NCBI RefSeq assembly: GCF_013426205.1
Contig: NC_089425.1
Location: forward strand, 3,286,001 to 3,350,000
DNA: 64,000 bases
Source of the DNA: Metarhizium brunneum
Lineage: Eukaryota > Ascomycota > Sordariomycetes > Hypocreales > Clavicipitaceae
Reading direction: 5' to 3'
The notes beneath the pieces were generated by a model. That model had not been told where the DNA came from and did no database searches. It saw nothing but the letters and a program-made list of their open reading frames with translations. Below, in pieces: positions 2,170 through 59,260 of the stretch (its first letter is position 1; the number at the start of each line of letters is the position of its first letter). Position numbers and translations under genes: made by a program.

Positions 2170-3222
2170 ATGGCGCTTTTAAGTAACCAGAATTTGAATT
2201 GTAGTAGTAATTACGGCGAGGACGTCGTTGCCCGAGTCAACGTCCTTGCCTCCTGCTACATTGTCGACTCAGCTGCCCAGCTCAAGGGCATCCACTACTG
2301 CACTACCGGGGCTGCAGGTATGTTCTCCAAGACTTCCTCTGACTTGACAATAATGCTATATCCCATGTGGTTCGGTTATCTGTGACTACCTTCAAATCAT
2401 CATCATTCTTCTTCTTTATATCTTGTCGCCGGGTTGTTTTACTGACTAATCTAAAGGGGCGGAGTGGTATTCCTGAGGTCCCTACCTCAGGACTACCTTC
2501 TCCTCCAACAAGCCCCCCCCTCGCCGCGCTGACTTCGTCTAACGAGCTCGCTCTTCTTCCGAAGAACAAGAAGCGCGACAATTCGGGCCACCGTCGCCCG
2601 GAGCGACGAGGGGGGGCAGCACTCACGATCAGGGAAGAATGTGAGAGATTCTTTTGTGAGCCCATGAAGACAGCATTCCACGGTGAGAGGAACCTGTCGA
2701 TGAATGGCTCCGGCCTGTCAGGTGCTTATTTACAAACGCCGCCACCAGAGAGCCGGTTATCCGACGCCTTCCGGCAGAGCATGGACATCAAGTCTCAGGG
2801 ATTTGAAGTCGATGCCTGGATGGAAGTTTGGGATTACGCTGGTGGTGCGAGCTTTCGGGCCTTTGTGGCAAATAACGGACAGGAGAAATCCTTGTTTGTC
2901 TTTTTTGACATTGAAGGTGCCATGGGACGAGATCTCAAGAAAGCGTGAGTTACCCTTTCTCTTGTTAGATATTTTGCGATGACTGAACCTGATTCTGACG
3001 ATTTGTCCTAATAGTCTTATGGCTCTTATCGAACTTGCTGATGGCCCTTTGGAATGTGCACACATCGTGACTTGCATTGATCGCCGCATACCCTTTGAGG
3101 AAGCACACGAATTGACCAAGAGCCTTCAGTGGGTTGGATTCGAAATGACCACTCTAGACCACTGGGCAAATCACCTCGATGTAACGAGCAAACGGTGGGT
3201 ATTCATGGGCATGGAACTCTAG
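2170..3222 (+). CDS. OAZ1: Ornithine decarboxylase antizyme, decoded by +1 programmed frameshift
   Basis: Antizyme binds ornithine decarboxylase, sends it to the proteasome without ubiquitin and blocks polyamine uptake. Proposed exons are 2170-2317, 2457-2944 and 3015-3222. ORF1 starts at ATG 2170 in an ACAATGG context and ends after 55 codons at W-Y-S-TGA (TCC 2471-2473, TGA 2474-2476). Skipping T2474 continues with GAG GTC CCT (EVPTSGLPSPP) in the second frame, giving about 280 residues. The C-terminal part carries the antizyme fold: DAWMEVWDYAGG, then LMALIELADGPLECAHIVTC, then LQWVGFEMTTLDHW, matching the LLEFAEEQL...HVFICF...FSFLGFEIV region of animal antizymes. The first intron (139 bp) ends only 14 bases before the TCC codon. 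High polyamine levels are known to raise frameshifting in this family, so expression is probably autoregulated. The family call is very secure; the splice sites are likely but untested. Confidence 0.93.
2471..2476 (+). promoter_or_regulatory. +1 ribosomal frameshift site TCC-TGA
   Basis: TAT TCC TGA GGT: the P-site codon UCC followed by the UGA stop is the classical antizyme shift site. The upstream frame ends here and the downstream frame, beginning at GAG 2475, continues with the conserved antizyme domain. The six bases after the shift are GAGGTC. Confidence 0.9.
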
Positions 3223-3725: not shown

Positions 3726-5512
3726 TCATGACAGGTCTTGTTCAAATTGCCTCACTACGAGGCCCTTGTCCTTTAAGTAATCCTTCACCTGCTTGACTGT
3801 ATACTCGGCGCGGTGGAACATGCCGGCGCCGAGGGCGGCATCCGTCGTAGTCTTGCTAAAGACCTCTTCAAAGTGGCCCGGGTTGCCAGCACCGCTGGAG
3901 GCAATGACGGGAATCTTGACGGCATTCTTGACCTGGGTGATGAGCTCGAGATCAAAGCCGGTATTTGAGCCGTCCTTGTCGATGCAGTTCAGCAGCAATT
4001 CTCCAGCGCCCATGGCCTCGACCGCCTGCGCCAGCTCGACGACGTCCATGTCCCGCGTTTCCCTGCCGCCCTTGATGGTGCAGGCGTACCAGCAGTACGG
4101 CTCGCCCCTGGGGCCGGGGAACTTGGTCTCGATGATGTTGTGGCGGGTGGCGTCGAGCTTGGGCACGTAGACGCGCTTGGGGTCCACGCTCACGACGACG
4201 GCCTGGTTGCCGTACGCGCGGGAAATCTGCTCAATGGCCGTGTTGCCGAAGAGCTTGCGGCCGAGGGAGTAGTACTCCTCGGCGGCGATGACGGCGTCGC
4301 TCCCGATGGAGACCTTGTCCGCGCCCGACTTGAAGTACATTGTTGCGATTTCGAGCGCGGAGACCTTTGTGCCGTCCGTGTCGACGGTATCGCGGATGCC
4401 GCCGCCAATGGTGAGCGGCACGAAGACGGTCTGCGATGTCTGGCGCAGGACCTCCAGCATGGGGAGGTCGGCGATGGGGCAGTCGCGGAAGGACGTGATG
4501 TTGAGGAAGGTGACTTCGTCGGCGCCGTCGTGGTAGTACTTCTTGGCCATTTCGACGGGCTTGCCGAGGTTGCGGACGTCGCGGGCGTCGTTCTTTTCGC
4601 GGACGTCGTACTGGTCGCCCTTTGTGACGACGAGGTCGCCCTGGTCGTTGGTGCGGACGTCGAGGCAGGCTATGACGCGGCGGGTGAGGCCGTCCTTGGC
4701 CTCAGAAGAGACTGGATCGACCGGCAAGGATGGCGAACCCAGGGTTTCGGCGCCCTGGCCGTTGAGGAATGCGCGGAGGGTTCGCAGGCCTGCGACGCCC
4801 GACTTTTCCGGGTGGAACTGTGTTGCGTAGATGTTGCCCTTGGCCACGGCGCCGACAAAGGTTTCCGTGCCGTAGGTGCCTGTCGCGACGGTCCATCCTT
4901 GGCCTTCCAGCTGGCCCTTGACGTAGGGGAAGCGGTATGTGTGGACGTAGTAGTATTTCGAGTCTCGGCGCAAGTCGTACATGGACTGGCCGGCGGTGCT
5001 GGCGCTGTTCCAGCCAATGTGCGGAACTGACTTGATCGAGTCGTCGAAGCGGCCCAGGGATCCCTTCACCACACCGAGCCCGGGTACGTCGGGGTCCTCG
5101 ACGGACCCTTCGAATAGGGCTTGCAGGCCGACACACACGCCCATGAAGGGTTTGCCCTCGTCAATATGTTTCTGGATGGCGGGCAGGTAGCCTGCCTGGG
5201 AGAGTTGGGAGAGACAGTGGCCAAAGTGGCCTACTCCAGGAAGAATGAGTTTCTAGATATCTTGGTCAGTAATTTCGAATCATTCATTTCGCCCTCCCCC
5301 GCGAAAAACAAGTCTCTTCTCTCTCTTTCTCTCTCTCTCCTTTTTCTGGGTTTTCCTATCCGCATTGGGGGAGGTGATGTGATGCATACCTCTGCTCGGG
5401 ACACATCTTCTGGCGACCGGATCCAATCGACCTCATAACCCAGCTTCTCTACGGCGTTGACCAGACTGCGAATGTTGCCGGCGACATAGTCCAACAAGTG
5501 AACCTTGGGCAT
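3726..5512 (-). CDS. HIS7: Imidazole glycerol-phosphate synthase (glutamine amidotransferase-cyclase, HisHF)
   Basis: Catalyses the fifth step of histidine synthesis: glutamine and PRFAR give imidazole glycerol phosphate and AICAR. Two exons: 5390-5512 (41 codons, starting [13 protein letters not shown]) and 3726-5252, joined across a 137-bp CT-rich intron; 549 residues in all, close to yeast His7 (552). The N-terminal glutaminase domain shows LPGVGHFG, the nucleophile Cys81 in MGVCVGLQ, and the triad His188 and Glu190 in QFHPEKSG. The C-terminal TIM-barrel cyclase starts at [10 protein letters not shown] and contains [11 protein letters not shown] and [15 protein letters not shown] with the expected catalytic aspartates. 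All key residues are intact. A TGACTCA site lies 200 bp upstream, fitting cross-pathway amino-acid control. Confidence 0.97.
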
Positions 5513-17415: not shown

Positions 17416-20247
17416 TCATTGTTCCTCGTCCTCGTGGATTGTAAAGCCCATTTCATCGCCGGGCCACGCTCGCTGCGTGCTGGGGTACTCGGACGGCTGA
17501 CTGCTGCCCTCGCTGTCTCCCTGGGGGTCGTCAGGGTCCACGTTTTCCCCGTTGGAAGAGCCCTCCTGATCTTCGATGCCGGGCCACGGCTCGTCCTCAG
17601 GTAGCTGCTCTGCATGTCCTGGCTTAATCGAAGGCCGGGTCATGTCTTCACTGCTGGAGATACTCTCTTGGCCGTCGTGGTATGACTCCTCGCCGCTGTC
17701 GTAGATTTCTACTTCAAACCGCTCGTCTGTTGGGTATTCCATGGCCACGTGGGATACTGCGCTACGGGCGACACTGCCTCCTCGTATGGGGCGCAACTCC
17801 TGTAGAGGCGCATTGCTGAAGGGCGTGGCATAGGCGGGCGGCGTCATACCACGGGTAACTTGGCGGTCGTTGATGGCAGACGGCATCGGACTGGGAGACG
17901 CGGTCCACCGCGGCGTGTGGTGCAGGTAACTCGGGGAGCGGGTGCTGCGTCTTTTCTGGATGCCTTGGTGTGAGCCGCGGCCGAAGGGGGACGAGTGCCT
18001 GGATGGTTGCACACCGTGGGAGACGATGCTGCGACGACTGGCGGCGCTTGGGGTCGGTTGGGCTGTTAGGGGGGCCGAGGCCGTGCGGATGTGAGGTAGT
18101 CGCGGGGCGGGACGGCGTCCAGAGGAGAGCATCGGAGACGGATGGCGGATGGCAGCGGGGCTGACTGAGCGCCATGGTTGTTCGAGCGAAACGAGTGCTG
18201 GCGAGACAGTGTGCTGGCGGCGTTGGCGCATGTTCAGCGACGTCGGGATGCTGGGGGCCTCGTCGAGTTGTTCGTTCCACAGCCAGCAGTGCTCCATGGC
18301 GTCAGCTTCCTTGACTTGTTGGGATTCCGACACGTCTGGTGAGACACGGTCCATCTCACGGACTCGTTGCCACGCACAGCCGGACTCGTATGCCTCATAG
18401 TCTTGTATGTAGGCGTCTGGGTGGGTGATGAAGAGTCGAGGTTCGGCAGACTTCATGGCTACCGAGTGTAGGAAGCCGACGTCCCATAATGTAGGAGTCA
18501 GCATTTCGGCGGCGCTGAGGAATCGAAGCCGTGATTCTTTGCGGACTTTGCGAAGGGGTGCCCATGATTCCTGGAGTCCAAGGTACCTTGAGAGACGTGG
18601 GTCAGTAGACTGGCGTCGGGGCGTAGTGCCCATGGTTCGAAAGACTGAACCAAATGCCTCGTGGATGCCGGCTTGGACGCTTCTGGCATCGGGGCCGTAG
18701 AAGGACACGGTTTGTATCAGACCACGGCTCCGTAGCCTTTTGTCCTGGGTGCTTTTATCACCACAGGCCCTGGGGTAAAGCCACTCCGCGTCGTGGTCGG
18801 AAACAGTCCAGTCGCCGCCAAACGGTGATTGAGACCGCAACGTTGCGCTGCTGAGCGTCATGGGGATTTGCGTCCAGTCGTCATTGCTGATGCTGGCATC
18901 GTTTTTGAACTGCGAGAGTTCTTGCCAGAGTCTTTTCAGTGGAAATGGCAAAAAGACCACCTCGATTGTCCATGCGTGGCCGTGTGATGGGAGAAACGAC
19001 TGAAGGTGAGTGACTTGGGCTCGCAGGCTGTCGATCTGAGACATAATTTCTTCTGGGTTTGGCAGGCTGGCAGAGCCTGCAGCCGTCGAGAAGACACTTT
19101 TAACACCATCGTCTTCTCCGTCGGCTTGTTTGTTGGTCAAGCCTGCAACATCCATGACCTTCTCTACGCCCTCCATCCTCTGCTCTAGTTCAGTTACACG
19201 TAAATCCATATGGTCATGCAAATCGACGCATTCTTCATGCCCATTTGCAGAGAACGAAACAGTCTCCAGGCGGTCCAGACGTTGTTCATGACCACTCACT
19301 ACGTCTGACAGGTTTTGAAGAGTCTCTCGGGAAATTCTATGGGCTGCTGCAGTAGCTCGAGGTTCAAGTTGAGTAGCAGTGTCGGGCTGTGATGTTGCCA
19401 GTCCTTGTATATTACGGTCAACAAATACGAAGTCATCGTTTGATGTGGCAGGGTCTGCAGGCGCAGCACTTGGAAGATTTTTATCAACTTTTGATGGTGG
19501 TGGTTGTTGTTGTTGCCGCGGTGAGCGGGGTCCAGGGGGAGTTACATCAAGTGTACCAAGACCTTTCCCAGCAAATGGTCTCTGGTACTTGGCCTGAATA
19601 GAAGAGGTGGTGGAACCAGTCTGAGAGGCCATCAGAAACTGGGACGGAATAGGGGGCAACGCCATAGGGTCGGAGGGTGGTCTTGGACACTGCGACGGCT
19701 GTTGAAGATATTCCTCCCATGCCAACGTATCCGGCATGGAGCCTAGAGGATGAGGACTGGCCTCTTGCTTCGAAGTGTCCTCAAACTCATGAACAAAGGA
19801 AAGAGGAATGCCAGGACTAAAGGCAGCGAAATCAAATCCGGGTACGGTAGAAACGCCTTGCATAGATGCATCCACGACGGGGCTCAGTGGTTCGCGTCCG
19901 GTGCGGGGTCTCTCATTTTCTTGTCCAAGGGGCGCGAAACCAGTTTGTTGCGGCAATTGCTGTTGTTGCTGCTGTGCGTCATCACGAGATCGTTCATCGT
20001 GATAGCACGCGTGATGGGCGCACATACACCATCCAGACTGGCCAGCAACAGGATTCCCCATCGCCTGGCGAGGCCAGAAACGACGGCATCCACATTTTGC
20101 TCCGGTGGCCCCAGGCGTCAGGTCAACAAAATTGCAAGATCCATTAGGCAGGCTCGGAGAAGGCGGCGGCAACGAGGTAGCAGCATCAGTATATATATCG
20201 AATGGACTCGCGCCTGGGTTTGAGGGATTTGGGAGGTTGGCGGCCAT
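17416..20247 (-). CDS. Large conserved fungal protein of unknown function with an N-terminal Cys/His cluster
   Basis: 943 residues from ATG 20247 (MAANLPNPSNPG); the frame also has a GTG 33 bases upstream that I do not use. The only clearly structured N-terminal part is a Cys/His cluster at residues 52-83 (KCGCRRFW ... GWCMCAHHACYHDE), which could bind zinc. A poly-Gln segment follows. A predicted coiled coil lies around residues 300-410 (LSDVVSGHEQRLDRLETV, LDLRVTELEQRMEGVEKVMDV-like heptads). The middle (about 420-640) is likely globular: HAWTIEVVFLPFPLKRLWQEL, YLGLQESWAPLRKVRKESRLRFLSAAEMLTPTLWDVGFLHSVAMKS. The C-terminal third is disordered, Ser/Pro-rich and ends acidic. I do not recognise the family; nuclear or regulatory roles are possible but unsupported. 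Single exon. Confidence 0.75.
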   Translation of the reverse strand: MAANLPNPSNPGASPFDIYTDAATSLPPPSPSLPNGSCNFVDLTPGATGAKCGCRRFWPRQAMGNPVAGQSGWCMCAHHACYHDERSRDDAQQQQQQLPQQTGFAPLGQENERPRTGREPLSPVVDASMQGVSTVPGFDFAAFSPGIPLSFVHEFEDTSKQEASPHPLGSMPDTLAWEEYLQQPSQCPRPPSDPMALPPIPSQFLMASQTGSTTSSIQAKYQRPFAGKGLGTLDVTPPGPRSPRQQQQPPPSKVDKNLPSAAPADPATSNDDFVFVDRNIQGLATSQPDTATQLEPRATAAAHRISRETLQNLSDVVSGHEQRLDRLETVSFSANGHEECVDLHDHMDLRVTELEQRMEGVEKVMDVAGLTNKQADGEDDGVKSVFSTAAGSASLPNPEEIMSQIDSLRAQVTHLQSFLPSHGHAWTIEVVFLPFPLKRLWQELSQFKNDASISNDDWTQIPMTLSSATLRSQSPFGGDWTVSDHDAEWLYPRACGDKSTQDKRLRSRGLIQTVSFYGPDARSVQAGIHEAFGSVFRTMGTTPRRQSTDPRLSRYLGLQESWAPLRKVRKESRLRFLSAAEMLTPTLWDVGFLHSVAMKSAEPRLFITHPDAYIQDYEAYESGCAWQRVREMDRVSPDVSESQQVKEADAMEHCWLWNEQLDEAPSIPTSLNMRQRRQHTVSPALVSLEQPWRSVSPAAIRHPSPMLSSGRRPAPRLPHIRTASAPLTAQPTPSAASRRSIVSHGVQPSRHSSPFGRGSHQGIQKRRSTRSPSYLHHTPRWTASPSPMPSAINDRQVTRGMTPPAYATPFSNAPLQELRPIRGGSVARSAVSHVAMEYPTDERFEVEIYDSGEESYHDGQESISSSEDMTRPSIKPGHAEQLPEDEPWPGIEDQEGSSNGENVDPDDPQGDSEGSSQPSEYPSTQRAWPGDEMGFTIHEDEEQ

Positions 20248-24231: not shown

Positions 24232-25899
24232 CTACACTTCACCCCAGCTTCCCATTGGGCCGTTGGAGGCAATGACCGACCCAGTGCCGAGAGAGCCACC
24301 GATATCCCAATAGTGCCTTGATGAACAGCTACTTCTCCGAGCCGACCGCCTAGTACTTTGGCTGGCGCAGCTGCTGTGGTGGCGCAAGACCACTGGGCTG
24401 TTGGGTGCTACGGCCTTGAACGACCGACGCTCTACCTGCCGCGTTCGAGCGATGAGAGGATGGTGTTGACGAACGCGGGCCACCTTGGCTGCGGTGTCCT
24501 GTTGAGTCGGTGTACCGTGATGTGACGTGCCAACAGTAGGGGAGTTGCCAGAGCGAGACGCAAAACGTGAAACAAGGTAGCGGAATACCAGCTTGATATC
24601 CAGACTCTTCTCCCACTCCTCTTTGGTAAAATCGGTGTCAGTCATGTCAATATCATTTCCAGAGCCATCACTCTTCTGCCTCCGACCTGGGATTCCAATT
24701 GGTTGCGAATGTTGGTGCATAGTAGGCTGGAATTCTGGAACAGATGGCTGGCTGCGTCTCTCGAGTTCTGTTACTGGACCAGTGATGCCAACATCGCTAG
24801 ATTCTGGAATGACTGGGAGACCAGCATACGGAAGAGGTAAGTGCTGCATCCTAGAATAGGTAGAAAATGCGCCAGGATGTGGTGATAGTTGGTTAACAAG
24901 CAGACCAAGCTCCCTAGATAGCCTTTCCAGAATTCGGATTTGCCATGAGGGCTCGTCCGAGGTAGTCAAAATTGGACGATTACTCGGTTGGGAGGCTCGC
25001 GGAGTAGATGAAAGTGCCTCCTCGTCAGGCAGTTCCTCACCTAAGAGAATCGACAGCATAGTGTCGTCGATGCCTAGGATATCTTTGACTACCGTACGTG
25101 TTATGCGCGCTAAAAAGCCCTCTTGCTCCGTGTGGGGCTGGAATGCCTCTTCATCATGCCATGTTAGATTATCTGTTTCAGCATCCGTATTGCGCCGTGA
25201 ACGGTGCATAGATGCCAATGACTTGCGTTGTCGTCTCGTTTCTCGTTGAACTTCGTTAAGTAAGACCCGGCTATGCTCCAGGCGCCATGCCTCGATTCGC
25301 TGTCTTTTATCCTCTTCTTGGGTCTGAACCTCGTCCAGATCAATATGGGTATTGTCAAAGCTGTCCAGTCTCCGGCGAAACTTGCGAGGATTGAACCTCT
25401 CGAACTGATATATCTGGTCCTGTGCATCAGCACCCAGGACAGGCCGATCAAAGCGGAACGAGCCTAGACCATCATGAGAGGGAAAGACTGGAGTAGCATT
25501 GTGGCTACCTCGTGGTGACAGAGTATTCAGACCAGGTACGGAGCGAAATTCGGGGAGGTGACTGTCTAGGCTATCGAGCTCAGCGTCGTCGTCGTCATCA
25601 ACAGCTGACAAAACGGAAGTCGATTGTCTAGCGTGAGATGGACCTTCAGATCTCGCCACGGTATGCAAGCTTCCAACATCACTCAGCCGTGATCGTCCAG
25701 GCGTCTCTACAGAGTGTTCTGACTCTGTGAGATATGATGAAGTTGTGACTTCAGTAGGGGGTGAGAACAGCACCCATGCCTGTGACTCATCTAGTCCTTG
25801 TTCAGATGTCGACGGTACAACGGCAGGACTCTGGTCTTGGACAGCTGCCGGGCGAGCTGCCCGCTGCACAGGTTGGCGAGTCGGTTGCTGAAAGGCCAT
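24232..25899 (-). CDS. Conserved fungal protein of unknown function, disordered with central charged helices
   Basis: 555 residues from ATG 25899 (MAFQQPTRQPVQ); the open frame extends further upstream but the leading part reads as leader sequence. Residues 1-180 are low in complexity with acidic patches (VDDDDDAEL). A basic/helical region follows (FNPRKFRRRLDSF, RQRIEAWRLEHSRVLLNEVQRETRRQRKS cut into two helices). A segment at about 260-290 (GFLARITRTVVKDILGIDDTMLSILLGEELP) and another at 470-490 (EWEKSLDIKLVFRYLVSRF) look structured. The C-terminus ends SSRHYWDIGGSLGTGS...GPMGSWGEV, which looks conserved rather than random. I do not recognise a named family. The gene stands between two gene-poor regions and has no visible intron. 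Confidence 0.7.
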   Translation of the reverse strand: MAFQQPTRQPVQRAARPAAVQDQSPAVVPSTSEQGLDESQAWVLFSPPTEVTTSSYLTESEHSVETPGRSRLSDVGSLHTVARSEGPSHARQSTSVLSAVDDDDDAELDSLDSHLPEFRSVPGLNTLSPRGSHNATPVFPSHDGLGSFRFDRPVLGADAQDQIYQFERFNPRKFRRRLDSFDNTHIDLDEVQTQEEDKRQRIEAWRLEHSRVLLNEVQRETRRQRKSLASMHRSRRNTDAETDNLTWHDEEAFQPHTEQEGFLARITRTVVKDILGIDDTMLSILLGEELPDEEALSSTPRASQPSNRPILTTSDEPSWQIRILERLSRELGLLVNQLSPHPGAFSTYSRMQHLPLPYAGLPVIPESSDVGITGPVTELERRSQPSVPEFQPTMHQHSQPIGIPGRRQKSDGSGNDIDMTDTDFTKEEWEKSLDIKLVFRYLVSRFASRSGNSPTVGTSHHGTPTQQDTAAKVARVRQHHPLIARTRQVERRSFKAVAPNSPVVLRHHSSCASQSTRRSARRSSCSSRHYWDIGGSLGTGSVIASNGPMGSWGEV

Positions 25900-32532: not shown

Positions 32533-34466
32533 ATGTCGGCTGCATCCACCAAGAAGCCCCCTTCCGGCGGTGTGGGCCGAGTATCTGCTACAGAAGCAGG
32601 CACCACATCGCCAGGAGCTTCGCCCTCACGAACCACCGCCCCAAGATCGTCGACTCCCACGGGACACGTTCGTACGAGATCGGTTCGAAGTGGCCCTCCT
32701 GTTTCTGCTCGCGCCGCAGTCCGCAGAGACTCTGCCGATGCTCGAGCGGAGGCCGCCTCTGCCCTCGAGGACCTCCAACAGCGCCTTGAGAAGGAGGAAA
32801 AGCTCTCGGAGCAGTACAAGAAACAGTCCGAGGTGCTTCAATCGAAGCTTGACGAGGCGCTTAGAGATGCCGTCAAGTCGGAAGAGAAGCTTCACGAATA
32901 TGAAGAACAGCACGAGGTTATTGTGAACGACATGAAGGAGGCCAAGCGCGAGAAGCGGGAGATGGAGACCATCTACGAAGCCGAGCGAAGCGCCATTCTC
33001 AAGGAAAAGGAGGAGTTGGCAAATAGAGAAGAAGAAATGCAGACTGTGATCCAACGGTTAAAGGACAGCCTGGCGCAGAGGAATAATTCCGATGATGATG
33101 GCCGGCCATCAAGGCAAGGTAAGGAAGAACTGCCTTGACAAGTTGACACCATAGCCCTGCATCGCCTTCTCCTGTTACACAGGTGCGCTAACCCTGTGTG
33201 TCCTATTTGCTAGGCAACTCATCGCCGTCCCTGGACGGTAGCAGCTTTGCGCCACCCTCCTCTCTGCAACGGAGTGATTCTCGAAACACCTCAAAGCTCA
33301 TACTTCAAAAGGACAAGTTGATCGAGTCCCTGCGATTAGAGCTTGCTGAGTCACAAATCAAGCTGGTCGAGTCGGAGAACCAGGGAGGCGGCAGGCTTCA
33401 AGAGGTCGAGCGCCTGCTCATGGAAGCTCGCATGGCCAACGCCCGCCTCATGGAGGACAACGAGAGCTACCAACTCCTGCTTCAGGAAAGGACACTCAAG
33501 GGCGACTTTGGCCAGACCGACTTCAGCTACATGAGCGCCGGTACCAACCAAGACGCGCTCAATGCCCTGGAAGGCAAAACCGGCGGGTCCAGTCTGGCAG
33601 ATGAGCTATCCGATGCTACTGAGGCCGAAAGCGAGGCCTACCGCCGACTAGAATCCGATCTCAAATCAATGAGGGAGCAAAACAAGGCGCTCACGCTGTA
33701 TATTAACAAGATCATTGAGCGCTTGCTGCAGCATCAGGACTTTGAGTCCATCCTGGACACGTCTGGGGAGGTCAAGACAGGTCCAATAGATATTAACAAG
33801 GACCTTCCTGCACCGCCATCCGGTGAGAAGCAGGCAAATGGTGCCGCTGCACTGCTGCAGCGAGCCAAGTCTATTGCCGTTGGTACTGGAAAGCCAAAGC
33901 CAAGGCCTCTATCGTTCATGCCATCTGCAGCCAGCTCGGCTCATACGGATCCAGAGACGGCTCCCAGCATTCCTATTGGGAATCTAGGGCGATCTGCAAG
34001 CACGAGGCGATCTCGGCCGCAGAGTGATCAGTTCACTGGCGCCGCGAGTCTCGTCAGCCAGATGTACAAAGGACCTGATGGTCCCGCTTCGCCTCCCCTG
34101 GGCAACCCACGACACTCGCATACTTTCTTTTCACCCCCAAACATGACAAGCAACCCGACAGTCACATCTCGTTATCCCAGCGGAAGTCAAGCCTCATCCG
34201 GGAACTTTCCCGGCATGAGGAGCGAGACGTCAAGTATCAGTGGAGAGTCGGGCGACATGTCAACATCCACACCGCCGTCTCAATCACCACCGCGCTCACA
34301 CAGCGACAAGCAGACGACATTTGCGGGCGGCAAGCCACGTCCCCTGAGACTAGTCCAGGAGAATCAAGATGCGGTCAAGGACAATAAACGAGCAAGCTGG
34401 TACACAGGCTGGAGCTGGGGCGGTAAGAAGGACGAAGCCCAACCCGGAGCACCCATTCCCGAATAA
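32533..34466 (+). CDS. Coiled-coil protein (fungal 'M protein repeat'-type), cytoskeleton-like
   Basis: Two exons, 32533-33118 and 33214-34466 (intron 95 bp, GTAAGG/TAG), give 612 residues. The N-terminus (1-65) is Ser/Thr/Pro-rich. Residues about 66-195 form one continuous coiled coil (LEDLQQRLEKEEKLSEQYKK and following heptads). After a Ser-rich hinge, a second coiled coil covers about 215-350 (KDKLIESLRLELAESQIKL, RLMEDNESYQLLLQERTL, YRRLESDLKSMREQNKALTL), with a compact segment LYINKIIERLLQHQDFESIL. The C-terminal 230 residues are disordered and end in a Trp-rich ASWYTGWSWGGKKDE. Similar fungal proteins are usually annotated only by repeat similarity. Role unknown; a scaffold is likely from shape alone. 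Confidence 0.78.
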
Positions 34467-43026: not shown

Positions 43027-45742
43027 ATGCACACTCTGCAGACACCACAGGACTCGCTCATAATAATGGAGAAGTCTTCTGCTACGGCGGACGGCGCCGC
43101 TGGTACTGCTTCCGCCGCCGCCGTCGCTGCCGCCCCGTCCAGCACCAAGACCAACAACACGACTGGGCCCAATGGCCCGTCATTACCACCGCCGAACACC
43201 TCTACGACCGAAAGCCAGACCTCGAAACAATCATCGGCTGCCAATTCTGTTGCGCATTCACCAGCCGCCTCCAGAGATGGCTCGCCTTCTAGGCAACCGC
43301 GTGGAGCAACTTCGTCTACTATGCAAACCGGGAGCAGGTCCCGTACGAATAGCCATCAAGAGACGAGCCCAACACGCCAACTAAGACAGGGTAGCCAAGA
43401 TCAGGGTGCACCGACCCGAACTTTGTCATCCATGACTACCCCAAACCTACGTCCCAGCAACAGGGAAACCCCGATATATGCGCCAACACCACAGAAGCCA
43501 TCAGCCATCCCGGACCTGAAGGATAACCCGCGGTGGCCAGTATCTCCACGACTACGATCACCTCCGCCTCAACTAGGCCGACCTAGGGCGACAACTCCCA
43601 CACGCCGCAATGAACAAGAGGCTCCGGTGATCAGTATTCAACGGCCAAGTCCCTCGCCACACGTCTCCGATACGCAATCGCAAGTCTTGGACAGCGACAC
43701 TGACGACTCTCACGCCCCTTCAGGTGTTCGAACTCCAGCTCGAGGGTTGTTAGAGACTGTCCAAGAAGTGAGCCATAACAACTCACCTGCACGGCCTAGC
43801 GATTCTGCCTTGCTGGAACAAGTCAAGGAGAAGCTTGGAGCCCCCGAAAACCACTCGGACGGTGCCCTTAGTGATGGGGGCCGTACCTTGAAATCGAAAA
43901 TGAGCACTGTTAATGACCAGTATGGAGCCGAGAGCGGCACTATCAGAGCGGACTCGAGGAGACCAAGCTCAGTCCCCCCTCCGCCCTTGGTATCCAGACA
44001 GTCTAGTGCCATGTCGGGAAAGCAAACCAAATCGAAGCCTGAAACGGGTTCTACTCAGAGCATGACTGTCGAGACTGAGACAGTCTCAAGTATTCCACAG
44101 GTAGCACTCACGACGGCTACGAAGGAAGGGGGCAATGCAACGTTGAAAGCCAAGCCAAGCACGGAAACCATTAAACCTAAGAAGGAAAAGAAGAGGACCG
44201 CCAGGAAGCAACCAGCAGTTAGTGCGGGTACAGGTAAGACATCTTTGCTCACTCATGGTTCCAATATTCACAAACACCACGATACTGCGGCCTCATCCTC
44301 ACCGGAGACTAACACTTTATTGTTTGATAGCCTCTTCTAAAGCCGACAACTTCGAAGCTAAGATAGCTAGTGCTGTTGATGAGGCCAATACTTCCGATTC
44401 TGAGGAGACCTTTGTTTATGATTCGAATCCGCCAGATAATACGGAAAGAACGAACCGCCGCTTTCACTCCCGGACGCCCAGTGCTACATCCATGGCTAGT
44501 CAAGTTGACCGACCAAATCTGCGGTCCATCTATGGTATAATGGAAGGCACCAGCCACGGGCCTGTTGCCAAGAAGAGCATGAAGTTTGTGAACACCTTTA
44601 ATGGCAATGCTAGTGACAGCCTTACACCGGGGGATGAAGACGGCAAGGGCAGTGGACGCAGTGCCGGGGGATCTGCCAGAGGAACGGTGCGACATCATCA
44701 CCACATTGGTCGATGGGGTCGACAGCCAGGCAACGGCCACGCTTCTTTATTCGATACCGAGTCTCCGTTCCCTAATGCAGCCAAGTCAAAATTTTCCTCA
44801 AGCAACAACCTCAACAACTCTCGCAATACCTCCAATCTTTCAAGCCCGAGGACATTCCTTTCTACTCGCGGGCATTTGAATCCAAAACGCTCCACGATGC
44901 AGATGTCGTCGAATTACGATTTAGACGACACTACTGGCGCTGACGATGAACGCACGCCGCTGCTTGGCACAGTACGTTCTTCACGAGGCGGGCGACGACG
45001 ACCTCACACCCTTCGCCAAGCCGAGTCTCAGACTTATACCAGGCGGTCATCATATCTCAATCGCTTCGCTGCGTGCCTTGTGTTGACAATGATGCTACTT
45101 TTAGTCATTACAGGAGCCATTGGGTTTATGTTTGCCACTTCTCAACCCATGACGGACATCGAGATTATGTCAATTAAGAATGTTGTTACAAGCGAGCAAG
45201 TGTTGATGTTCGATTTAACTGTCAAAGCACACAATCCCAATATTGTTGTGGTGACAATCGACCACGCAAATCTGGAGATTTTTGCCAAGTCCGAATATGC
45301 CGGAAATGATTCAGACTGGCGGAAATCTCCGGGAGGTTCCAACGAGATTCACACCAGAGATGATCCCGTGAATGATCCACCGAAAGGCCCCGGAGAAGGC
45401 GATGGGGGTGACACCGATTCTAGGCCCAATATTTTATTAGGACGGATCACCGAATTTGACAGTCCACTGACTTTTGAGGGCTCTCTATTTCACCAAGGCG
45501 CTTCTTCTTCGACAGGAGAGATGCAACTTCCAAATCCAGGAAATGGCACTTCTGGCGGCTCTGAACGATGGGGTCACATCTATCAAAATGAGTTTGACCT
45601 GATTGTGAAGGGAGTGGTGAAATATAGCCTACCGCTGAGTGCTCATATCCGTAGTGCTACAGTATCTGGTAGGACTACCGTAAAGCCAAATTCGGCGAAC
45701 GATCCGTCGCACAAGCCGAACAGTACTATTCTGGGCATATAG
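43027..45742 (+). CDS. VAC7: Vacuolar segregation protein Vac7 family
   Basis: Vac7 is a vacuolar membrane protein that activates Fab1 kinase to make PtdIns(3,5)P2. Two exons, 43027-44233 and 44331-45742 (97-bp intron, GTAAGA/TAG), give 872 residues. The N-terminal two thirds are disordered, rich in Ser, Pro, Thr and basic clusters (KPKKEKKRTARKQP). The conserved C-terminal domain begins around VDRPNLRSIYGIMEGTSHGP, passes through DDERTPLLGT, and has one membrane span at about 648-671 (RFAACLVLTMMLLLVITGAI). The lumenal part starts with MTDIEIMSIKNVVTSEQVLM and contains FDLTVKAHNPNIVVVTIDHANLEIFAKS, an LEA-like strand pattern typical of Vac7. The frame has TTG in phase upstream; ATG 43027 is the first Met, ATG 43066 an alternative. 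Confidence 0.9.
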
Positions 45743-57322: not shown

Positions 57323-59173
57323 CTAGATGATGCAGAATGTGCGTTCTACAAAACCCCTGCTCTTTTCAAATACCTGGCCATCCATGAACCCGTGGACGTA
57401 GCATGGGCCCACGAATAGGAAGTCGCTGTTTGCTTCATTTGCACCTCCATCTCCGGATGGGACGGGCCTCAGAACAACCGGTACCTTTGCGCCCTTTAGC
57501 ACCGTGATCCAGTCGCCGTCTTGGGCTCCGTGCGGAAGCCTGCAGTAGATCCCGCCCTTGGTCATGGCAAAATCCCACGTATACCACTCAAACACGGCGT
57601 CTTGGACTCTAAAATCGATGTCGATGTCTCTGTTGCTATCTAGAGGCGTGGTGATCCATTTGGTGAACCGCGGCGCCAGCTCCTCGATGTCGGCGCTCGT
57701 GAGGCGAGCCATTGGGTAGCGCTTCACGTCCATCATCATGGTGCGCCAGAAGGCTTCAAACGAGGCTGGGAAGTTGGGGACGTCGCAGGCACTCGCATCC
57801 GGGTGGTTGGTCTTGAGAAACGAGGACAGCGAGGAGTTGCCATTGCGGATTGCCGCCCGGATGAGGTCGTCTGGCATCCACTGCAGGCAGTGGTTCGCGC
57901 CAGGGGGGTAGGGCACGGCGTTCTGGTTTTGCGGACTATATCTCGAGACATGGGATAGGGTGTCGATTTCGTAGCCCGCGAGCTGCAGCGTGCCCTCTGA
58001 GACGGAGAGCGGCAAGTCCACCTCGGCGCCGCCAGCGTTGAAGATGGACCTCTGCGCGAAGAGTATGCTCGTTTGGCCGGGGCTGGCAAAGTCTATGGTC
58101 CACGATGGCAGGTCGCTGCTGCGACTGTCGTTGCCGTAAAGCTGCCAGGCGGACTGGCACAAGAGGTCGAGGTTCCGATCGTGCTCCATTAGCCTTTTCA
58201 TGCAGTCGATGTAGATGGCCCTTGTGGAGAGGCTGTAGTCTACTTTGATGTCGAGTCTATTCGACGTGAGACTTAGGAGGGCGTATATCTTGTCCCGCGG
58301 ATCAGTGGCATCGGTGTACCGAAATCGGGAGAGAACATCCAGCATTGATGATGGCTCGTTGGCCTGGACCTCGTCCCTCACCACTCTTCGCTGGTGGCAC
58401 ATGATTTGCGGGTAGGCAATCGCTCCGCTTGCCCAGGACCGGATGCTCATGTCGTGGCTGAACGGGCCGTGAAAGGCGTCGGGGACACCGTATCTCTCGA
58501 TATAGACGTCGACGTCGAGGAAATCCTCCACCACCGTCCACGGCAGCGTCGCATGCCCTGCCACGAGAAGAAGGCTGGATGCAAAGGCTACCTCCTGAAC
58601 GATCCAGACCCGTCTCCATAAGGCTGGCGTTGCAAAGAGATGGCGTAGGTTCTCCTGCATGCGCTCCAGCGTCTGCGTCTGCTCGTCGCTCAGGTCCAGC
58701 CATCTCTGGCGCAGCTCGTCCTCCAGGCGAAACAGGGAGCCGAAGTGAGCCATGGAGGATGCTGCGTCTTGCAGCATTTTGGCATCCCCGCCGAGCCAGA
58801 GGAGGTCTGTGGCGCATCGTTGGTAGACCTGGCTCATGTAGCCTATGTGGTTGCTCTTCTCTGCGTGGTTCGCCTGGTCGATGCAGATGGCGTCGGCCCA
58901 GATTTGACGTGGCCTGTCTGGTAGGCGGAGGTGGCGAAGGGCAGTCTCCAGGTTTCTAGTTGCGTTGAACATGCCGTGGCCGACCTGAATCGGCCGCGTT
59001 TCTGTGGTTTGGCCCCAGACATAGGACAAGGCTTCAAAGGGCGGGTGGTTGTGAAGCTCGACGTTGTGCAGCTCGCACTTGATGGGGCTCGAAAAGTCCG
59101 AGGATGGTTGCAGTGTTATGAGACGGAATCCGCTGTCTGGTTGGAGCGGCTTGTACTCTACAGTGGACTGCAT
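57323..59173 (-). CDS. HET-domain (heterokaryon incompatibility) protein
   Basis: 616 residues from ATG 59173 (MQSTVEYKPLQP); an in-frame ATG at 59242 would add 23 residues but lies outside family similarity. The HET domain is complete: FEALSYVWG (46-54), NATRNLETALRHLR (70-83), IWADAICIDQANHAEKSNHI (91-110), QVYQRCATDLLWLG (115-128). It continues with LWRRVWIVQEVAFAS and the downstream segment TDATDPRDKIYALLSL. These proteins trigger cell death when genetically different hyphae fuse, although most members are untested. The C-terminal 250 residues lack a recognisable partner domain. The gene is single-exon and shares a 436-bp region containing a telomere-like repeat with the divergent PPR gene. 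Confidence 0.92.
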   Translation of the reverse strand: MQSTVEYKPLQPDSGFRLITLQPSSDFSSPIKCELHNVELHNHPPFEALSYVWGQTTETRPIQVGHGMFNATRNLETALRHLRLPDRPRQIWADAICIDQANHAEKSNHIGYMSQVYQRCATDLLWLGGDAKMLQDAASSMAHFGSLFRLEDELRQRWLDLSDEQTQTLERMQENLRHLFATPALWRRVWIVQEVAFASSLLLVAGHATLPWTVVEDFLDVDVYIERYGVPDAFHGPFSHDMSIRSWASGAIAYPQIMCHQRRVVRDEVQANEPSSMLDVLSRFRYTDATDPRDKIYALLSLTSNRLDIKVDYSLSTRAIYIDCMKRLMEHDRNLDLLCQSAWQLYGNDSRSSDLPSWTIDFASPGQTSILFAQRSIFNAGGAEVDLPLSVSEGTLQLAGYEIDTLSHVSRYSPQNQNAVPYPPGANHCLQWMPDDLIRAAIRNGNSSLSSFLKTNHPDASACDVPNFPASFEAFWRTMMMDVKRYPMARLTSADIEELAPRFTKWITTPLDSNRDIDIDFRVQDAVFEWYTWDFAMTKGGIYCRLPHGAQDGDWITVLKGAKVPVVLRPVPSGDGGANEANSDFLFVGPCYVHGFMDGQVFEKSRGFVERTFCII

Positions 59174-59260
59174 TTTTATTATAAATATCAGGCAGATGGC
59201 ATTGTTGATGTTGGAACCCCAACAATCAATCACCTGACGCATTTACCAGGATGATGAAAA

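Follow-up and report, generated by a model that had tools for sequence, protein, structure and literature searches.

The skipping of a single base at a UGA stop codon in the making of antizyme is already known from yeasts to humans. According to one source (PMC5009743), antizymes typically have UCC_UGA and a strongly conserved UGG that precedes the shift codon by two codons, and some antizyme mRNAs carry a pseudoknot located 3 nt downstream of the site. Within the phylum of the locus described here, fungal antizyme genes have been reported from the ascomycetes Emericella, Botryotinia and S. pombe (PMC3432380, PMC4505036).

The present locus was found in a window of 64,000 nucleotides, the whole stretch of DNA that was analysed, and is a well-supported ornithine decarboxylase (ODC) antizyme gene of a Metarhizium-like ascomycete, of a kind already known. 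We consider that its best explanation, with a probability of about 0.92, is a UCC-UGA +1 frameshift yielding a 280-aa antizyme that acts in the polyamine/ODC circuit. The initial annotation had also proposed an antizyme recoded by a +1 shift at UCC-UGA, and this remains the best reading after the addition of a conserved context and of two introns, both absent from that description. The locus is otherwise ordinary for antizymes; its meaning lies in the fact that database gene models conceal the base skip.

Gene structure and the proposed frameshift

As read from the sequence, the antizyme gene has three exons and occupies positions 2170-3222, with all of its parts on the plus strand. Exon 1 (2170..2317) carries the ATG and the first 49 codons of ORF1 and ends in phase 1, as judged by translation and by the alignment of ORF1-sized relatives. 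Intron 1 (2318..2456; GTATGT...ACTGAC...AAG) is predicted from its splice signals and frame and from the absence of this stretch in the ORF1-sized relatives; ACTGAC is a branch-like site, and the acceptor ending at 2456 is AAG, which is a weak type of splice acceptor. Since this intron has 139 nt, that is, 1 mod 3, position 2474 is out of register with the unspliced ATG frame. Once spliced, ORF1 has 55 codons ending GAG TGG TAT TCC TGA, with its end lying within exon 2 (2457..2473; last codons GCG GAG TGG TAT TCC) and with the UGG two codons upstream of the shift codon in place. The shift site UCC-UGA itself (2471..2476) can be read directly, U2474 being the base skipped, and the positions given by the initial annotation for TCC (2471-2473), TGA (2474-2476) and the +1 frame from GAG 2475 proved correct when checked on the sequence. 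Its statement that frame 1 stops at TCC TGA stands for the message with intron 1 spliced out and falls for the unspliced DNA, in which the frame of ATG 2170 already stops at 2383-2385.

The antizyme domain begins in the +1 frame of exon 2 (ORF2; 2475..2944), as seen from translation and the domain match, and from GAG 2475 this frame reads EVPTSGLPSPPTSPP. ORF2 reaches the stop TAG at 3220-3222 only when intron 2 (2945..3014; GTGAGT...TAG, 70 nt) is removed, an intron predicted from its splice signals, from the frame and from the domain matching both flanks as separate exon pieces; the remainder of the domain is in exon 3 (3015..3222). Both introns are, of course, predictions from the DNA sequence. 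Skipping U2474 gives a product of 280 aa that covers Pfam ODC_AZ (PF02100) over its full length, positions 1-114 of 114, with E 2.9e-47 and 159.7 bits against a cut-off of 24.2. Chance is excluded by such a full-length match of the joined product, which also bears out the earlier claim that the antizyme domain continues in the +1 frame. Given the predicted intron 1, the locus would have the arrangement by which an antizyme with a programmed +1 frameshift is recognised: ORF1 is short and closes on a shift site of typical form beside its stop, and the +1 frame encodes the domain.

A search of the genome (37.77 Mb, 7 contigs) found a single antizyme locus, as two exon pieces, together with one match to an ODC-type decarboxylase (Orn_Arg_deC_N, E 3.0e-79). 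For the 13-mer TGGTATTCCTGAG, a genome search gave a single exact match, and 47 places when up to one mismatch is allowed. Among solved structures, there was no sequence match at E 0.01, either with the single sequence or with profile A1, by a method that misses distant relatives. Rfam, which includes an antizyme element built on vertebrate sequences, gave no family at its gathering score in the 64-kb window, and no tRNA genes were found there.

In the mechanism that we propose, ribosomes would translate the 55-codon ORF1 until UCC has been decoded and UGA occupies the A site; there, a fraction of them would terminate while others would slip by +1, skip the U and read on through ORF2, yielding the antizyme of 280 aa. 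By analogy with the established antizyme circuit, polyamines would raise the shifted fraction, and the antizyme would then bind ODC and deliver it to the proteasome; the slip, the polyamine response and the ODC binding are all ascribed to this locus from its family. The slip may be modulated by a predicted local hairpin and by the conserved UGG-UAU that precedes the shift codon. Because the TGA at 2474-2476 sits 468 nt upstream of the next exon junction, the unshifted mRNA might undergo nonsense-mediated decay.

Several other genes were seen in the window. A HIS7-type histidine biosynthesis gene (His_biosynth plus glutamine amidotransferase; minus strand, 3726-5144, its upstream part extending to about 5512) adjoins the antizyme gene, and its first part is seemingly in a separate exon. 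A Vac7 gene (43027-45742, plus strand) falls into two ORFs that overlap but differ in frame, and it needs no recoding, since an ordinary-looking intron of 97 nt (GTAAGA at 44234 to TAG at 44330) would explain the split. A HET (heterokaryon-incompatibility) domain protein of 639 aa is encoded at 57323-59242 on the minus strand, and three long ORFs have no Pfam match at E 0.001: 17416-20247 (minus, 943 aa), 24232-25899 (minus, 555 aa) and 33420-34466 (plus, 348 aa).

How the gene models of relatives cross the stop codon

The search with the full product returned 434 matches, and the best 120 of these 434 were sorted by their way of crossing the stop. The +1 frame across the site is read as GIPEV in 52 of these 120 models; 39 have an AAG-LPSPP-type junction that resumes only at a distal CAG; another 12 show AE-CPPLAA or a variant of it (P0114 being the variant), with a short intron that starts inside the site; 13 contain ORF2 only, and 4 are of other types. 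This bears out what the initial annotation had foreseen for gene callers, a shortened protein or an invented intron. The WYS peptide is in none of 207 relatives, made up of these best 120 of 434 and of 87 further ones from a search with a Leotiomycete protein (best 120 of 343). Such incompatible ways of crossing the stop among the 120 models, none with WYS, are expected if no common intron exists.

The missing stretch persists in separately called proteins of ORF1 size, which, when searched for apart, gave 45 matches, 38 of them ending in EWYS; the remaining seven diverge past the conserved end of exon 1 and stop elsewhere. In Purpureocillium, the ORF1 and ORF2 proteins even carry adjacent locus tags, PLICBS_005018 and 005019. 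The context TAT TCC TGA GGT had been taken as private to this locus, a view contradicted by EWYS-stop in 38 of the 45 ORF1-sized relatives and by GIPEV in 52 of the best 120 of 434. By the genetic code, where WYS-stop and IPE are both encoded, TAT TCC TGA plus a purine would be the only fit, and the shift site is conserved in both overlapping frames at the protein level of the relatives. Of the ORF1-sized matches, 12 apparently retain the intron (a narrower pattern caught 6), and in them, GAEWYS or GVEWYS is preceded by L, P, S, T or I, which would fit an acceptor YAG|G in those relatives; the Metarhizium locus has AAG. At the level of DNA, no relative was confirmed in scans of genome contigs and viral contigs; the two stretches given by a 17-mer scan of the viral contigs were taken as chance and rejected.

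The absence of WYS from all 207 relatives, together with its persistence in the separately called proteins, shows the mis-modelling of these genes. Structural work, peptide searches and studies of fungal ODC regulation that use such models begin from wrong or missing N-termini.

The predicted hairpin and the alternatives to frameshifting

The shift site falls within the 5′ arm of a predicted hairpin (2461..2503, plus strand), located by folding and by an inverted-repeat search, in which UCCUGAGGU (2471-2479) pairs with ACCUCAGGA (2484-2492) through nine perfect pairs around CCCU. Folding of the 84 nt from 2457 to 2540 gives -32 kcal/mol (z -3.47), with 1 of 200 shuffles equally good, and inverted repeats of this kind (9 bp, loops of 3-8) occur three times in the window, one of them beginning at the shift codon. 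When ORF2 was recoded synonymously, 926 of 20000 draws folded at least as well, and therefore the support for the hairpin from this single sequence is modest. A perfect 9-bp arm appeared in 1243 of 200000 synonymous draws, in a test chosen after the arm had been seen. The amino-acid sequence with the fixed 5′ part already favours pairing, with a null mean of -21.9 kcal/mol vs. -12.4 kcal/mol in 391 equally long coding windows. Backed by the folding of one sequence, the hairpin is suggestive. If it forms, it would more probably act on the approach of the ribosome or before translation than as a classical 3′ stimulator, because a ribosome at the site would have already opened the stem. Looking for a 3′ stimulator after the stop, we found stretches of 50 and 80 nt that fold no better than shuffles (z -0.76 and -0.03), and one of 141 nt with z -2.65, for which 1 of 200 shuffles was equally good. 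Local RNA features of fungal antizymes, perhaps this hairpin among them, may already be described in a 2007 survey by Ivanov and Atkins.

The 3′ arm of the predicted hairpin also contains the distal CAG (2488..2490, plus strand), a candidate frame-joining acceptor by virtue of its frame and of its use as the junction in the Metarhizium guizhouense model P0001; from the donor of intron 1, it joins ORF1 to ORF2 in frame. The 39 AAG-LPSPP relatives would imply a TCA serine codon at this place, compared with a 14% share of TCA among the serine codons of 11 long ORFs in the window; this is only a hint, because such models need that codon to be built and come from related species. Among the 207 relatives, 78 models read GIPEV (a count that left out the GFPEV, GVPEV and GIPEA models), and their residue pair at the distal-CAG place is S-G in 72, Q-G in 5 and T-G in 1. 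The Q-G pair could keep UCAGG in another register, with the acceptor out of phase, which would favour an RNA sequence over a splice site; the T-G model would break UCAGG. One may imagine that in Pezizomycotina antizymes the shift site is set in a hairpin kept by selection, and that an in-phase acceptor lies in its 3′ arm (UCAGG); folding would hide this acceptor and preserve frameshift control, and opening would give a frameshift-independent antizyme, as a second route into the polyamine circuit at the level of splicing. We regard this as unlikely. If the frame-joining acceptor were used, splicing would bypass the control of antizyme. Our literature search found nothing on antizyme together with Metarhizium, and alternative splicing of fungal antizymes was absent from the titles and abstract openings that it listed.

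A further step would be to take splicing as the main route to the antizyme, with intron 1 ending at the distal CAG and a joined protein of 269 aa. Here, the acceptor is in phase and the frame is open, the competing acceptor AAG at 2456 is of a kind generally known as weak, and the same junction type is modelled in 39 of the best 120 of 434 relatives, including the closest of them, M. guizhouense P0001, with 268 of 269 residues identical to the distal-CAG model of our locus. These deposited models are, however, predictions, and they disagree on the intron, given that the other 81 of the best 120 of 434 use different solutions or have no ORF1. Moreover, EWYS is kept as the end in 38 of the 45 ORF1-sized matches, and in the five Q-G relatives a CAG codon would put such an acceptor out of phase. 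We consider splicing as the main route quite improbable. Two more frame-joining options exist at the locus, an intron of 46 nt (2467-2512) that starts inside the shift site and a donor after 2262 joined to 2457, and each gives an open frame, the junction type of the former being found in 12 of the best 120 of 434 relatives. The 46-nt intron would nevertheless be very short, the donor after 2262 would delete a conserved stretch of ORF1, and splice choice varies between species, so that we hold it very improbable that either intron is real.

An in-frame stop might also come from a sequencing error or a decayed gene, a reading for which the stop itself is the only argument. The same stop and its flanks recur in the ORF1-sized proteins of relatives and in the GIPEV reading, and the ODC_AZ domain is intact; error and decay were rejected on these relatives and this domain as hardly credible. 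Readthrough at UGA occurs in general, and readthrough in the same frame would do without any frameshift, yet the zero frame past this UGA meets its next stop after 21 codons and the ODC_AZ match falls in the +1 frame, for which reason it was rejected on the reading frame and is the least credible of all these readings.

Comparison with described antizyme systems

At the level of gene models, the UCC-UGA frameshift reading of this locus shows no difference in kind from the known ascomycete antizymes, whose models likewise vary in crossing the stop; the Botrytis cinerea antizyme P0214 is itself a relative of the locus (search with the Leotiomycete protein, best 120 of 343). With mammalian antizyme 1, as described in PMC5009743, it shares the UCC-UGA site and, by analogy, a +1 shift on the final ORF1 codon and the ODC feedback; in contrast to the antizyme mRNAs with a 3′ pseudoknot, the Metarhizium locus is without an Rfam match and its 50 and 80 nt past the stop fold no better than shuffles. 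The Agaricomycete antizyme with a nascent-peptide stimulator, according to PMC4505036, likewise shows sequence conservation immediately upstream of its shift site; in contrast, its shift codon is UUU and its structure starts from 19 nt 3′ of the site, while in Metarhizium, the codon is UCC and the predicted hairpin spans the site. Finally, M. guizhouense P0001 is the same protein outside the skipped stretch (268/269 identical), and its model differs in being drawn without a frameshift, with the distal acceptor as its junction.
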